Origin: an uncultured Clostridiaceae bacterium
Lineage (GTDB): Bacteria; Bacillota; Clostridia; Lachnospirales; Lachnospiraceae
DNA: 37,353 nucleotides
NCBI GenBank assembly: GCA_949948825.1
Contig: CATLIJ010000002.1
Coordinates: 1 to 37,353 of the forward strand
Direction: 5' to 3'
Each line of letters opens with the position of its first letter. Position 1 is the first letter of the stretch. A program made the position numbers and the translations under genes. Below are positions 2,489-17,538 of this stretch, piece after piece. The notes under the pieces are model-generated. The model was not told where the DNA came from. It worked only from the letters and a program-made list of their open reading frames with translations, and made no database searches.

Positions 2489-2521
2489 AAAAAGGGCCTA
2501 TCGCAAAGATAAGCTCTTTTT
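2489..2521. terminator. Bidirectional terminator between convergent operons
   Basis: AAAAAGGGCCTATC, GCAAA, GATAAGCTCTTTTT forms a 14-bp stem with one wobble and one mismatch. It is flanked by A and T runs, so it can work for the ABC operon on the plus strand and the unknown operon on the minus strand. Confidence 0.7.
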
Positions 2522-3122
2522 ATTGGGTAGCTATGCTCTTTTCATTATCAATAGGCGTGAATAACGGTAGCTTTGATGCTCTTTCCACAAGAAGTCCATA
2601 TAAATTTGCCATAGAGAGTACATTAAAATTATGATATATCTCGGAAAAAAATAAATCCTTATATACACTCATTAAAAAATCATCATCTCCTTCATACAAT
2701 TCTGTTATTCCTAATTCTTTAAAATAAAAAATTGGCTGTTCTATACTGGCAATATCTTCTTCTTTGTAATCCTGCAGAATGGACCCAATTGCCATAAAAA
2801 AGGCCAGTCTCTGTTTAAGATAATATATATCATATTTCTTTTTCATATTATAATTGTAATTAAGAGGCTCAGATTTAATAATTGCATAAGTCAAAACCGA
2901 TGCACGTTTATACCTGCTTAACTTTTTTTGTGTTTCTTTAAAATATGAATCCTTTACAATACATTTAATCGCTTCATAGGTTTTGTGAATCTGTTCAGCC
3001 GCTCCCATTTTTATAGTACAAATTGAGCCTATCTTCCTCTCAATTTGTCCATCAAAAAAAGTAAGTGTGTACCAATTTTCACTCCAAACATTCCAAAATT
3101 CAATAAATTTTTCCGATGTCAT
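2520..3122 (-). CDS. Hypothetical protein, last gene of an unknown three-gene operon
   Basis: The product has 200 residues, is mostly charged and aromatic, and has no signal peptide or membrane span that I can see. The N-terminus (SEKFIEFWNVWSENWYTLTF) and the middle (LSRYKRASVLTYAII, LKQRLAFFMAIGSIL) look alpha-helical. The mid-section could be a HEPN-like helical bundle, but I do not recognise a catalytic motif. It begins ten bases after the stop of the upstream small membrane-protein gene, so the three genes from 3841 to 2520 are probably one transcript. The DNA is AT-rich compared with the housekeeping genes around it, consistent with acquired DNA. No function is assigned. Confidence 0.65.
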   Translation of the reverse strand: MTSEKFIEFWNVWSENWYTLTFFDGQIERKIGSICTIKMGAAEQIHKTYEAIKCIVKDSYFKETQKKLSRYKRASVLTYAIIKSEPLNYNYNMKKKYDIYYLKQRLAFFMAIGSILQDYKEEDIASIEQPIFYFKELGITELYEGDDDFLMSVYKDLFFSEIYHNFNVLSMANLYGLLVERASKLPLFTPIDNEKSIATQ

Positions 3123-7713: not shown

Positions 7714-8304
7714 CTATCCCATTTCTCTGTTTTCCAAAATCACTTTCTTAATACTTTCCACACAGCAATCCAGACTCTGATTTTCAAACATTCTGAAAAT
7801 TCCAGATTTCCTTAAATTTTTCTCCGAAAAATCCTCCTCATCTGCTAAAAATCTCCTGCACATTTCCACATAATCCGGTTCTCTTTGCTGGCGCTCTCTC
7901 ATAAGAGCACGCTCCAAACGAACACCAGTTTCTACGACAATATAAATTGGCAGCACAATATCACCAAAATATCCCTTGATTTTCTCATATGACTCCAATG
8001 TCCCAATAGCCAGATAATCCTCTTTTCCCCTTCCGAATTTTCCATCATCTACAGTAGCATAGCTCCACAAGCCTGCAGCTGTATGATAAATCCGTCTCTC
8101 AATCACCTTCCCCTTTTTCTGAAACTCATCTAACTCCCTCTCTGTAATAAAATAATATTCAATCCCCTGCTTCTCCCCATCCCTCATAGGCCGGGTCGTA
8201 TAAAGCAAAACCGGACAAAGCCCCGGACATTCTCCCAACAGTCTTTTATAAATCGTATCCTTTCCTGACGCGCTTTTTCCCATCAAATAGAATATTTTTC
8301 CCAT
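7714..8304 (-). CDS. Guanylate kinase-like P-loop protein
   Basis: The protein (196 residues) has the guanylate-kinase layout. A P-loop MGKSASGKDTIY starts at residue 8. The GMP-binding stretch YTTRPMRDGEKQGIEYYF lies at about residues 36-53. A lid region with several arginines (RALMRERQQREPDYVEMCRR) follows. The P-loop has Asp after Lys where true guanylate kinases have Ser or Thr, and the protein is more divergent than housekeeping Gmk. It may be a paralogue rather than the essential enzyme. It follows the decarboxylase gene with a gap of about 95 bases. A weak AGGAA precedes the ATG. Confidence 0.75.
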   Translation of the reverse strand: MGKIFYLMGKSASGKDTIYKRLLGECPGLCPVLLYTTRPMRDGEKQGIEYYFITERELDEFQKKGKVIERRIYHTAAGLWSYATVDDGKFGRGKEDYLAIGTLESYEKIKGYFGDIVLPIYIVVETGVRLERALMRERQQREPDYVEMCRRFLADEEDFSEKNLRKSGIFRMFENQSLDCCVESIKKVILENREMG

Positions 8305-8398
8305 TTTATATTCCTGATTCCCTTCCTTTTTCCTTCACCCTTTGATGACCATTTCTTCCCATTGACCAAGCTTATCTCTTATCCATTCCGATATTTCC

Positions 8399-10153
8399 CT
8401 ATTCATCCATATCATAAACCGGTGTTTCTGATTCTGCACAAACCTTCAAAAACTCCGCCTTCTGATCCTCCATTCCCTGTACTGAAAATCCGTTTTTCTT
8501 ATATTCCAAAATCTGTTTAAGGACAGAATCCTTCAGCCTCTCTCCCGGAACAATAACCGGAATCCCGGGAGGATACAAATATACAAATTCGCAGGAAATC
8601 CTCCCTGCACACTCTGAAATAGCCACCCGTTCTGATTCAGCCTCAAATGCATCTGCCAAAGTCATACCATCCTCTTTTCTTTCCTTTCCCTTTCTATTCT
8701 TCCATTCCTTTGACTCTCTCTTTTCCTCAATCCGTTTCCGTTCTTTTGAGCTTTCTCTGTCTTTTGAACTTTCTCCTTCTTTCGGGCTTTCTCCTTCTTT
8801 CGGGCTTTCTCCTTCTTTCGGGCTTTCTCCTTCTTTCGGGCTTTCTCCTTCTTTCGAACTTTCTCCTTCTTTCGAACTTTCCCTTTCCCCTTCTCTTTTC
8901 CCTCTTTCTCCTTCCTCCTTCATTAATCTTTCCTTTATCCAACACTCTGTCTTCTTCTCTTGTTTCCCATTTCTGCAATCCTCAGCCAGTCCCCTGTCTA
9001 TCTCCAACAATGCCTTCTCCAGCCGGTCCAATCCTTCCTGTGCATCCAGAACTGTGGTTATCATAACCACATAATCCAGTCCGCACATCTCCACCTCCAA
9101 GCCATATTTCTCCCGAAGGCACATTCCCAGCCTTTCCCCTCCAAAATCTGCGTCTTTACAGGAAACCACAATCTTTGACGGATCTAATTCATATACCCCG
9201 CAGGTTCCCACTGCCGATTCCTCCAACAGCTTTAAAACCTGCATAGTGGCTAATTCTTTCCTCAGCTTCCCAAGTCTTTCTCCAAATCTCTCAAAATCAT
9301 CCCTTCCATTATTCTTCATTTCAAAAATACATTGCTCGATTCCTGCCATCAACACATAAGAAGGACTGCTGCTTTGAAATACCTGGAGATACCACTCAAG
9401 CTTTTTCAAATCCACATATCTGCTTTTTACATGCAAAATTGCGGTCTGTGTAAAACAAGGTAATGTTTTATGTAAACTTTGAATCACAAGATCCGCTCCA
9501 CAATCCAATGCAGAAGCCGGAAAATTTCCTCCAAATGCAAAATGAGCTCCATGAGCCTCATCCACAATCAAAGGAATCCCCTTCCGATGCACAATTCGGG
9601 CAATTTCTTCTATATTTGATACAATTCCTTCATAAGTAGGAGAAACCAGAAATACAGCTCCAGCCTCCGGGCAATGACTCAGTAACTCTTCCACATCCTC
9701 AGCCAAAATACCGCCATTTATCCACAATTTTTCTAATATCTGTGGATAAACATAAGAAGCTTTCATTCTTTTGAGGATAAGTCCATGATATGCACTTTTA
9801 TGACAATTCCGTGCCATTATTATTCGTCCATTAAATCCCACACTTGCACAAATTGCACTTAAAATTCCCCCACTGCTTCCATTAATCAAATAATAACTTT
9901 TATCCGACCCATATATTCTGGCTGCCCAATCCATGGATTCCCGCAAAATTCCTTCCGGATGATGAAGATTGTCAAATCCATCAATCTCTGTAATATCAAT
10001 GGAAAATGGATTTGGAAATTCTCCCAAGACTCCCCCTGTCTGTCTTTTATGTCCCGGCATATGAAATGGATATACGCCAGACTCACTATATTTTTTTAAT
10101 CGCTCTATTAATAAATCTTGTTTCTGCAATTTATCTAACCTTTCCTTATTCAC
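8399..10153 (-). CDS. Orn/Lys/Arg decarboxylase family PLP enzyme with hexapeptide-repeat insert
   Basis: This is a fold-type I PLP decarboxylase of the SpeA/LdcC/CadA group, presumably acting on a basic amino acid to make a polyamine or diamine. The PLP lysine lies in IQSLHKTLPCFTQTA. YPFHMPGHKRQTGG near residue 28 and VDEAHGAHFAFG are typical. The C-terminal domain (FVYLYPPGIPVIVPGERL) is also recognisable. Between the two domains (about residues 395-500) lies a long charged insert with six to eight copies of a SPKEGE/SSKEGE hexapeptide, not expected in the family. The track uses a GTG start (10153) almost on a predicted -10 box. A TTG at 10132 behind AAGGAAAGG may be the real start. Substrate cannot be told from sequence. 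Confidence 0.88.
   Translation of the reverse strand: MNKERLDKLQKQDLLIERLKKYSESGVYPFHMPGHKRQTGGVLGEFPNPFSIDITEIDGFDNLHHPEGILRESMDWAARIYGSDKSYYLINGSSGGILSAICASVGFNGRIIMARNCHKSAYHGLILKRMKASYVYPQILEKLWINGGILAEDVEELLSHCPEAGAVFLVSPTYEGIVSNIEEIARIVHRKGIPLIVDEAHGAHFAFGGNFPASALDCGADLVIQSLHKTLPCFTQTAILHVKSRYVDLKKLEWYLQVFQSSSPSYVLMAGIEQCIFEMKNNGRDDFERFGERLGKLRKELATMQVLKLLEESAVGTCGVYELDPSKIVVSCKDADFGGERLGMCLREKYGLEVEMCGLDYVVMITTVLDAQEGLDRLEKALLEIDRGLAEDCRNGKQEKKTECWIKERLMKEEGERGKREGERESSKEGESSKEGESPKEGESPKEGESPKEGESPKEGESSKDRESSKERKRIEEKRESKEWKNRKGKERKEDGMTLADAFEAESERVAISECAGRISCEFVYLYPPGIPVIVPGERLKDSVLKQILEYKKNGFSVQGMEDQKAEFLKVCAESETPVYDMDE
8751..8880 (-). repeat. 18-bp coding tandem repeat (hexapeptide) in the decarboxylase
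   Basis: Six near-identical 18-bp units of CTTTCTCCTTCTTTCGGG (plus strand) lie at 8769-8876. The first four are identical and the last two end in GAA. A degenerate unit precedes them and a partial one follows. On the coding strand each unit gives one SPKEGE or SSKEGE hexapeptide. Identity at DNA level suggests recent slippage expansion. Confidence 0.95.
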
Positions 10154-10163
10154 ATGATTTCTA

Positions 10164-10230
10164 ATTATATCAACAATAAAAATAAAATGCCATAGAATAA
10201 TCCTGTAAAGTTTGATATAATTTATATCAA
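10164..10230. promoter_or_regulatory. Divergent promoter region with repeated TTGATATAA half-sites
   Basis: TTGATATAA (10212-10220) and its inverse TTATATCAA (10222-10230) form a 9-bp inverted repeat with a one-base centre. A third half-site, TTATATCAA, occurs at 10165-10173. Each contains a -10-like TATAAT or TATAAA element: one pointing right to the 75-residue gene (10216-10221), one pointing left to the decarboxylase gene (10164-10169). Matching -35 boxes are poor, suggesting an activator or a weak promoter. Confidence 0.45.
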
Positions 10231-10248
10231 TGTGAAAGGAGTACCTCT

Positions 10249-10476
10249 ATGAGAGAAGTAGAATTTAAAATGGAACGGCAAGGTCTTGTACAAACCGGAG
10301 ATGAAGTTGAAATTACCGAACGAGAAGGAGTTACCTACAGCTATATTATTGAACCAGCAGTTGCCATGTCCGGCTGCTTTCCTGCCCGTGACCGGATCAA
10401 ATCCCAAAAAGGTATTGTAAAAGAAATCCGCCAAAATGACCGGGGATTCTATGTAATTGTTATGTTTGACGAATAG
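10249..10476 (+). CDS. Small conserved-looking hypothetical protein (75 residues)
   Basis: The start is well supported by GAAAGGAG eight bases upstream of the ATG. The product is acidic and lacks a signal peptide or membrane span. Its alternating pattern (GDEVEITEREGVTYSYIIEP, then KGIVKEIRQNDRGFYVIVMFDE) suggests a small beta-barrel of SH3-like type. I do not recognise the family. It is transcribed divergently from the decarboxylase gene and convergently with the 560-residue membrane protein gene, with a terminator directly after the stop. Confidence 0.7.
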   Translation: MREVEFKMERQGLVQTGDEVEITEREGVTYSYIIEPAVAMSGCFPARDRIKSQKGIVKEIRQNDRGFYVIVMFDE

Positions 10477-14609: not shown

Positions 14610-14625
14610 TGTTTCACGTGAAACA
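14610..14625. promoter_or_regulatory. parS centromere site 1
   Basis: TGTTTCACGTGAAACA is a perfect 16-bp match to the bacterial parS consensus bound by ParB/Spo0J. It lies upstream of parA, between the divergent parA and hydrolase promoters. Confidence 0.97.
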
Positions 14626-15772: not shown

Positions 15773-15788
15773 TGTTTCACGTGAAACA
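15773..15788. promoter_or_regulatory. parS centromere site 2, inside a longer palindrome
   Basis: This is a second perfect TGTTTCACGTGAAACA. The palindrome extends five further bases on each side (15768-15793), making 26 bp of perfect dyad. It begins directly after the hydrolase stop codon, where it could also fold as an RNA hairpin. Confidence 0.97.
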
Positions 15789-15836
15789 TTATTTAAAATC
15801 AGAAAAATTCAAAATCAGCAAAGGAGAGATACATTC

Positions 15837-16991
15837 ATGGAACTGAAGTTAAAGTATAAAAACTTCAGATTACACTTAGAATTTCATAACAAAATAACAG
15901 TCATTACGGGCGATTCAGCAACTGGAAAATCGACCATAGTCCATTCTATGTTTGATTACACCAACAATATTAAATATAAACTATCCGATCCCAGTTTTGA
16001 TTGCATGATGATTAACGACCAAAGGAGAGTTATTGACGACCTTTCTCATAATCGCCAGAAAATGATATATATGATAGACAAGTTTCGCATTAGAATTACG
16101 AAAGAAGTAATTGAAGCAATTCGGCAATGTGTGGGATGCTATATCATATTCATATGCCGAAGTAATATAAGTGCAATTAATTATAGTGCAGACGCCCTAT
16201 TAAAACTTAAAACTGATAAAAACGGTATTACCAGAGGAGAGAAATATTTAAAGAATAATCTTCCCATTAGTAATCCTTATCGCTCAAATTTTGATTATAT
16301 CATAACAGAAGATGCAAAATATGGACATGAATGGATACGTCGGCTATTCATTAAAATAGATGCAAAATTCATTATTGCTGGAAGTATTCTACGAGATGGA
16401 ACTGAAATAGCTGTTAGTAATTATGACTCTATAAAAGATGAAATAAAACTGCAATCACAAAATAGATCAGATACAAAATATTACAATAAAAGATATTCAT
16501 TAGATGATATAGGTGGAAAGGAAAAAATTAACCCAACAATTGAAGGAATTAGTAAAATCAATCCGACTGCAAAAATACTGGTATTTTTTGATTTTTGTTC
16601 CTTTGGAAGCGAAATATCACATTTTCAATCTGTATTAGAAAACAAAAAAATGGATATATTATTTTTCCCTCATTTCAAATCCTGGGAATTTGTAATGTTA
16701 AATAGCAATATGTTTAAACACAAATGGATTCCTTACACAATATTTACTCCTGACTTTGAGGAAAGCTATTATGAAGAATTATTACAAGAAGTTTCCAGAA
16801 ATAATGTTGGTACAATAAAACATCAAAATCAAGGTAGTTTACCTGCTTGCTGCTATAAAATATGTTGTGCTTATTCTGGTAAAAATACTGGGTGTAAATA
16901 TGGACTTTCCAATACCTCTGGAGATAAATTTATAGATCTTTTTCTCCATACTTCATTTGAAGTACTACTAAAACTTGCCAGGAGGATCTAG
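15837..16991 (+). CDS. P-loop NTPase with Toprim/OLD-like second half, unknown function
   Basis: The product has 384 residues, and AAAGGAGAG precedes the ATG. A clear Walker A motif, ITGDSATGKSTIV, lies at residues 23-35. A Walker B-like KMIYMIDKF lies near residue 78, and a sensor-like YIIFICRSN near 105. The second half begins FDYIITEDAKYGHEWIRRLF and later has KILVFFDFCSFGSEI, reminiscent of the acidic motifs of Toprim nucleases in OLD-type proteins. The second DxD acid is missing. A Cys-rich patch (CCYKICCAYSGKNTGC) is near the C-terminus. The DNA is strikingly AT-rich. The stop is one base before the DUF4869 ATG, so the two genes form a unit. No function is known to me; a defence or toxin-like role is speculation. 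Confidence 0.7.
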   Translation: MELKLKYKNFRLHLEFHNKITVITGDSATGKSTIVHSMFDYTNNIKYKLSDPSFDCMMINDQRRVIDDLSHNRQKMIYMIDKFRIRITKEVIEAIRQCVGCYIIFICRSNISAINYSADALLKLKTDKNGITRGEKYLKNNLPISNPYRSNFDYIITEDAKYGHEWIRRLFIKIDAKFIIAGSILRDGTEIAVSNYDSIKDEIKLQSQNRSDTKYYNKRYSLDDIGGKEKINPTIEGISKINPTAKILVFFDFCSFGSEISHFQSVLENKKMDILFFPHFKSWEFVMLNSNMFKHKWIPYTIFTPDFEESYYEELLQEVSRNNVGTIKHQNQGSLPACCYKICCAYSGKNTGCKYGLSNTSGDKFIDLFLHTSFEVLLKLARRI

Positions 16992-16992
16992 T

Positions 16993-17538
16993 ATGTTATA
17001 TATTTATGAAGGGCAAATTCGATTTGAAGATATTAACAGACCATCCTATATCTATAATATTGACTTTGTTTTTGATTATTTCTTTGAAGATACCTGGATT
17101 GATGAATGGGCAAAATATATATTGAAGGAAATCGATAAAAGCGAATTTTTATCACCAAAGGTAATACACAGTCCTGTTTTAGATATTATTGATTACACGA
17201 AAATATCTGGCGGAACAAAGACTCTGATTCTTATGAATCATTATAATGATGTTCTCTATAATGGAGACGGCCTTGGAGATAACTGTTGACCCTATGCGCT
17301 GGAACTTGGAAAAACAAAAGATATCATTATGAATTTATCCTACTTTCCCCAATTTCAATGGCTTGAAGGGACAAAAGCCACATTTCTAAACAGAAACAGA
17401 ACTGTCAGTTCAAGAGAAGAATGGCTGGATGAAATATTAGAAAATGCAGATTCCGTAAGAATGGATTATGCCATAGACGCAATTCAATGGCCAATAAAAT
17501 TAAATGAAAATAGATTTATTGATGAGATTGATTTTTAA
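16993..17538 (+). pseudogene. DUF4869-type gene interrupted by an in-frame UGA
   Basis: The ATG at 16993 lies seven bases after AGGAGG. The N-terminal part (98 residues) has the DUF4869 pattern: an MLYI start, then WIDEWAKYILKEIDKSEFLSPKVIHSPVLD, then SGGTKTLILMNHYN and GDNC. A TGA at 17287-17289 then stops translation. The same frame stays open for 83 more codons. It continues as PYALELGKTKDIIMNL and on through the second ORF-track entry (17329-17538), as the family would. It is therefore one gene of about 181 residues with a nonsense codon. Readthrough (the UGA is followed by C) or a sequencing error are alternatives. The two halves should not be annotated as separate genes. Confidence 0.75.

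Follow-up and report, generated by a model that had tools for sequence, protein, structure and literature searches.

P-loop ATPases that hold a Toprim-type toxin in check have been described before. AAA antitoxins neutralise RloB/OLD-Toprim toxins (PMC10440598), and in the PARIS system AriA sequesters AriB (PMC11455837). Class 1 OLD genes are also found as solitary genes (PMC10568477), and Cran1 demonstrates that an ATPase-nuclease of the OLD type can serve the cell cycle (PMC12796447). DUF4869 (PF16163) has no described function and was named in no paper found in a literature search. Here, a DUF4869 gene that adjoins a gene for a P-loop ATPase was examined in a window of 37,353 nucleotides (the whole stretch of DNA analysed), together with relatives of both genes.

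The ATPase-DUF4869 pair in the window and its genomic site

The first gene of the pair (15837-16991, plus strand) is preceded by a ribosome-binding-site-like sequence (AAAGGAGAG, 15820-15828) and encodes a 384-aa protein, P0001, in which a P-loop ATPase is fused to a Toprim-like C-terminal domain (C-domain). It ends in a TAG at 16989-16991, and the ATG of the DUF4869 gene lies one base on, at 16993, with its own AGGAGG (16980-16985) placed within the end of the ATPase gene, as the initial annotation had described. The second gene is a frame of 181 codons (16993-17538, plus strand) interrupted by an in-frame TGA (17287-17289), which in this draft assembly sequence splits it into 98 and 82 codons; relatives have intact copies. 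The 98 codons ahead of the TGA match PF16163 (2.9e-19, 69.6 bits; curated cut-off 28.9), which confirms the family to which the gene had been assigned. They include the motif ISGGTK (17203-17220), corresponding in alignments to the LSGG-x-K motif of the family, which is ABC-signature-like and begins a helix, and the GDNC motif (17275-17286). Reading the TGA as tryptophan was rejected, since tryptophan is otherwise encoded by TGG in this gene.

In the ATPase, also on the plus strand, the Walker A motif GDSATGKS (residues 25-32, 15909-15932) has G, S, G and K residues that are invariant across 18 relatives. The Walker B strand (residues 76-82, 16062-16082), placed by alignment with relatives, retains the aspartate D81, but its end is of the type MIDK, with lysine in place of the catalytic glutamate, where relatives have IDE or DE. 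Hence, of the two Walker motifs that had been called sound, only the first is so. A sensor-like arginine that closes the following strand, R108 (16158-16160), is invariant in the alignments. The C-domain, residues about 150-384 (16284-16988), was assigned from conserved motifs, the model of a relative's domain, Foldseek and hhalign, and its acidic motifs in the window are E158-D159, D252 and E284. An imperfect 21-nt repeat (16300-16320 and 16348-16368) opens a segment of ~40 aa in this domain that is missing from a congener's copy.

A sister pair of the same subtype and gene order, intact in both genes, is present in a congener (L223), where the ATPase of 348 aa is 30% identical to that of the window (blastp) and is followed two bases later by a DUF4869 gene for 176 aa. 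Its Walker B reads IIDEN, and neither lesion of the window is present. Because the DUF4869 gene, the putative brake of the module, is cut short and the Walker B is altered in the window, whereas the sister pair has neither change, the window copy of the module is probably dead.

The pair is AT-rich, with 31% GC against 41% for the window, and sits among chromosome-partition genes and rsmG, in agreement with the housekeeping surroundings reported initially. Its immediate neighbours encode an alpha/beta hydrolase and a glyoxalase-family protein, with parA and rsmG further out. When the window was compared by blastn with the nearest congener (G681, L207), homology on the left stopped at 15790, just past a perfect parS-type palindrome (TGTTTCACGTGAAACA, 15773-15788), and resumed at 17532, just before the ribosome-binding site of the glyoxalase gene. 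The segment between these edges (15791-17531, plus strand; 1.74 kb) consists of the pair, its whole gene content, with its leader, and is absent from the congener, which has ~350 bases of unrelated intergenic sequence at the site. Two perfect parS-type sites of the sequence TGTTTCACGTGAAACA lie beside parA, at 14610-14625 and 15773-15788, the second being the left edge of the segment. In nine congeners, the genes parB, parA and rsmG stand alongside those for the hydrolase and the glyoxalase (one has no detectable hydrolase and one no detectable glyoxalase), and none of the nine has the pair between those neighbours. The empty site is direct evidence that the module was gained, repeated loss being less likely. 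Apart from the parS palindrome, the segment showed no terminal or flanking repeats and no integrase, and a promoter scan gave sites no more numerous than in shuffled sequence. Elsewhere in the window, an open reading frame of 200 aa on the minus strand (2520-3122) has no Pfam match.

Pairing, arrangement and distribution of the family

Of 299 genomes sampled from the same family, Lachnospiraceae, to which most named relatives of DUF4869 belong, 57 have the gene, as do 5 of 24 genomes of the genus, one of which has eight matches. In a 300-genome sample of the phylum, DUF4869 was detected only in the window's own genome. The eight matches in the one congener (G692) are of differing subtypes, and another genome of the family (G111) has thirteen. 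The module is also present on megaplasmids, and it occurs in records of Collinsella (Actinomycetota), of a plasmid of Agathobacter rectalis and of a conjugative plasmid of Ruminococcus albus. On the R. albus plasmid pRUMAL02 (L171), the ATPase (8085-8960) is annotated as 'translation initiation factor 2', and an IS21 transposon separates it from a truncated DUF4869 gene.

The co-occurrence of the two genes, raised as a check in the initial annotation, is clear. In the 299 genomes of the family, 33 of the 35 intact ATPases adjoin an intact DUF4869 gene on the same strand, and the two exceptions are an ATPase at a contig end and that of the window. The pairing is far beyond chance. The genes usually overlap or lie up to 15 bases apart, and they are built from three recurring blocks that occur fused or split, namely DUF4869, an ATPase domain of ~150 aa (ATP) and a C-domain of ~170-230 aa (C). 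With fused blocks in square brackets, four arrangements were seen: DUF>[ATP-C], which is the commonest; [ATP-C]>DUF, the ATPase-first minority order of the window and of L223, L165, L122, L242 and L243; C>DUF>ATP (L126, L149, L157-159, L166 and L167); and DUF>ATP>C (L153, L154, L156 and L160). Homology between the C-domain in its separate and in its fused form was supported by hhalign (probability 97%). The association thus outlasts fission, fusion and reordering of the blocks, which favours a functional unit. The module is a real, previously undescribed three-part family in which a protein of the ATPase-Toprim kind is joined by a new partner, DUF4869. Tandem or back-to-back modules (DUF-ATP-DUF, ATP-DUF-DUF-ATP) are found at L091:9009-10441 and L122:8495-10450, and hint at local duplication or repeated insertion.

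Two viral contigs of 72.6 and 126 kb, both of which may be fragments, carry one and two DUF4869 genes (L143:10001-10453; L144:8883-9422 and 9659-10435) and no recognisable ATPase. Genes in their vicinity encode a phage-type DNA polymerase, methyltransferases, an RtcB ligase, Thg1 and HNH endonucleases. Scans of viral sequences with the ATPase, the DUF4869 of the three-gene forms and P0001 as queries returned nothing new. One of the three phage genes, that of L143, has an in-frame TAG at a tryptophan column; its decoding as tryptophan was not adopted, and it was read as a plain stop. From these two contigs, it is possible that a lone phage DUF4869 acts as a decoy antitoxin or in counter-defence.

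Proximity to defence islands had also been put forward as a check, and it was not observed. On the contigs that carry the module, PADLOC families were not enriched among genes within 3 kb of it relative to those at distances above 6.5 kb. This missing signal is a point against a role in defence, though OLD genes of class 1 are likewise found singly. Assignment to a known defence family was rejected, as PADLOC matches of the module lie only around the P-loop. The isolated position among ordinary genes and the lack of a defence-island signal would suit a housekeeping or metabolic regulator, for example in RNA turnover, in which an ATP-gated nuclease has no link to phages or to selfish persistence, and Cran1 provides a precedent (PMC12796447). 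Against this reading stands the very patchy distribution of the module, which was detected in 57 of 299 family genomes and, within the genus, in 5 of 24, one of them with eight matches. The frequent decay described below, the site that is empty in congeners, and the occurrence on megaplasmids, in another phylum (Collinsella) and in phage contigs also speak against it, and a housekeeping role is considered improbable.

Domains of the module and their decay

In alignments of the ATPase domain, Walker A (GxSxxGK) and the arginine ending the next strand are invariant and the DE of Walker B is present in most sequences, and nothing recognisable as an ABC signature lies between the Walker motifs or downstream of them. 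No match in Pfam, NCBIfam or PDB extends past the P-loop. A housekeeping ATPase was rejected on this ground, and the clear homology to one that would have told against the initial annotation is not seen in these databases.

The conserved core of DUF4869 consists of LS(G/T/S)G-x-K and CG(D/E)NC, with ECGxN in place of the latter in the three-gene forms, and the LSGG motif begins a helix in the model of the protein. Among the profiles tried with hhalign, those of ABC transporters matched DUF4869 best, from LSGG to the end, at a probability of 13-31%. This is too weak for DUF4869 to be claimed as an ABC C-lobe and was kept as a lead only. In a more specific scheme, which is considered unlikely, a minimal P-loop domain with no signature of its own would be completed in trans by DUF4869, whose LSGG-x-K helix would serve as the ABC signature half. 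The two proteins would form a composite ATPase gating a Toprim nuclease, and the lone DUF4869 proteins of phages would be decoy antitoxins against it. In a read-through model of DUF4869 fused to the ATPase, both folds were modelled (pTM 0.58) with no PDB match, and no interface was predicted.

As to the C-domain, the residues E, D, G, D, G, S and E are invariant in 46 sequences including that of the window, in motifs of the types E-D-xxx-G, D-G-xxx-G and (P)ES-F/W-E. With respect to a Toprim metal site, the E and one D are invariant and the second D is not, the DxD being reduced to a single D. An AF2 model of a relative's C-domain (m9411d268e196; pLDDT 87.9, pTM 0.85) has a b-a-b-a-b-a-b core. 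Foldseek gave no match at E<=0.001 in PDB or among viral structures (BFVD). The weak PDB list has response-regulator receiver domains among its top entries by E-value, plus two small Toprim proteins, and the weak BFVD matches include several DnaG/Toprim proteins, the highest TM-score among those listed being that of an RloB-like protein (TMq 0.51). By hhalign, RloB was the best profile match among the sets tried, the module's own effectors aside (E 7.7e-4; score 30, as compared with at most 24 elsewhere), and in the alignment EGxKTE is in register with EDSNSG, DKD with ADGA, and N-x-x-FE-x-W-x-LLHF with PESFEWLIL. Pfam returned no match to the C-domain, including RloB (PF13707), DUF4435 and the OLD-like Toprim, and hhalign against the OLD Toprim set gave background values.

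The evidence on the C-domain is weak but convergent, and the domain is probably a divergent Toprim that is nearest to RloB. The Toprim-like second half of the protein proposed initially is moderately supported by the confident model, the RloB-like viral neighbour and the aligned RloB motifs, though not by any single significant match. By the tests applied, it is not a protein of the OLD family to which it had been likened, with no DUF4435 or OLD-like Toprim match and no ABC signature recognised in the ATPase. If the C-domain had another Rossmann-like fold, receiver-like or other, it would not be a nuclease and the module would be a signalling ATPase. The receiver domains among the top PDB matches by E-value and the one conserved D in place of DxD fit such a fold, but RloB is the best profile match, with the E, D and FE motif in register, and several of the weak viral structural matches are Toprim proteins, and this reading is considered improbable.

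The two genes of the module decay unequally. Of the 55 intact DUF4869 genes in the 299 genomes surveyed, 22 had no intact ATPase gene (most were rechecked on DNA), and the reverse case, an intact ATPase with a broken DUF4869, was found in the window only. With gene length allowed for, this one-sidedness (22 against 1) has p=0.002. Likewise, the ATPase gene is broken or missing in ~40% of a DUF4869-anchored set of 80 loci (a few at contig ends), and in an ATPase-anchored set none of 22 intact ATPases has a broken DUF4869. In 19 of 36 cases, the first break lies where the C-domain begins, at positions 150-198 of the model (p=2e-7 against a uniform expectation, an optimistic value given that the interval was picked after the data were seen), and a fragile linker might account for part of the cluster. 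In the proteins truncated there that were inspected, Walker A is kept in 17 of 17 and Walker B and the arginine in nearly all; the loci inspected had no substitute effector further downstream. On the DUF4869 side, the LSGG-x-K motif is retained in 73 of 74 proteins paired with an intact ATPase, and motifs were lost in 6 of 26 DUF4869 proteins without an ATPase domain as compared with 1 of 74 with an intact partner (p=0.001).

The one-sided decay, the breaks at the start of the C-domain and the pristine ATPase domain together indicate that the C-domain is what cells shed, and that the ATPase and DUF4869 form a unit able to persist without it. Read from sequence, this suggests that the nuclease-like part is toxic and that the other parts restrain it, which gives independent support to the toxin-antitoxin design suggested in the initial annotation. 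The loss of signature motifs from lone DUF4869 genes, as expected of remnants, and the frequency of truncated or missing ATPase genes would also be accounted for if DUF4869 were a required co-factor, such as a sensor, of an abortive-infection nuclease that is lost as costly, with DUF4869 lingering. However, the loss is strongly one-sided even with gene length allowed for, and the ATPase domain is pristine where only the C-domain has gone, which suits a still-useful unit of ATPase and DUF4869. The co-factor explanation is a possible but less favoured one.

Proposed role and comparison with known systems

The preferred reading, to which a probability of about 0.5 is given, is a toxin-antitoxin-like module in which a harmful Toprim-like nuclease is restrained by the ATPase domain and DUF4869, with phage a likely cue. 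The genomes show that the genes pair, that the module has three parts, that decay is one-sided and that the site is empty in congeners, and we infer the nuclease chemistry, the binding of DUF4869 to the ATPase, the trigger and the target. The module would be horizontally mobile in gut Clostridia, the window holding a decayed copy. Its effector would be the C-terminal nuclease domain, RloB/AriB-like and harmful when free, and a short P-loop ATPase domain, in most loci part of the same protein, would act with the separate DUF4869 as sensor and brake, keeping the nuclease off. Most likely, DUF4869 would bind the ATPase domain via the LSGG-x-K helix and the GDNC loop and set its ATP-bound state. 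When the assembly is disturbed by a cue, for which phage infection is the likeliest candidate, the nuclease would be released to cleave RNA or DNA, and growth would cease. The sequestration of AriB by AriA and the neutralisation of RloB/OLD-Toprim toxins by AAA proteins are precedents for such a brake. A point against it is the fusion of the ATPase to the effector in most loci, which differs from a classical separate antitoxin.

DUF4869 is common in Lachnospiraceae, a dominant gut family, and its pattern of decay points to the restraint, with a small ATPase, of a Toprim-like effector. If this is correct, a widespread three-domain ATPase-nuclease module is added to those of gut bacteria, the misleading annotation 'translation initiation factor 2' can be replaced, and some phages, as suggested by the viral contigs, carry the counterpart.

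Of the known systems, OLD and GajA of Gabija share with the module an N-terminal P-loop ATPase followed by a C-terminal Toprim-like domain. However, they have 500-690 aa as compared with ~320-384 aa for the module protein, which has no OLD-like Toprim match and no recognised signature motif in its ATPase. In OLD classes 1-3 a single ABC-type ATPase chain carries the signature as well as both Walker motifs, whereas here an LSGG-like motif is found on DUF4869, a different protein. The module is accompanied by neither a GajB helicase nor a retron, and no helicase gene lies between parA and rsmG.

PARIS (AriA and AriB, OLD class 4) is similar in having an ATPase that would restrain a Toprim nuclease, and in occurring in fused and split versions. 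PARIS lacks DUF4869, however, its AriA is an ABC ATPase of larger size, and the module has no DUF4435 match; its PADLOC matches to AriA are weak and confined to the P-loop domain.

Type II toxin-antitoxin systems resemble the module in their two small overlapping or abutting genes, patchy and multi-copy occurrence, an effector that is lost more readily than its partner, and lone partners in phages. The module differs in that its putative effector has its own ATPase domain.

The ATPase and Toprim pairs of the RloB (PF13707)/AbiL kind, which belong to abortive infection or toxin-antitoxin systems, have no described DUF4869 partner, and the module differs further in having no Pfam RloB match and a much shorter, usually fused ATPase domain. 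Like these pairs, however, it has the motif order E...D...NPxFExW/PESFEW and an effector coupled to a P-loop ATPase.
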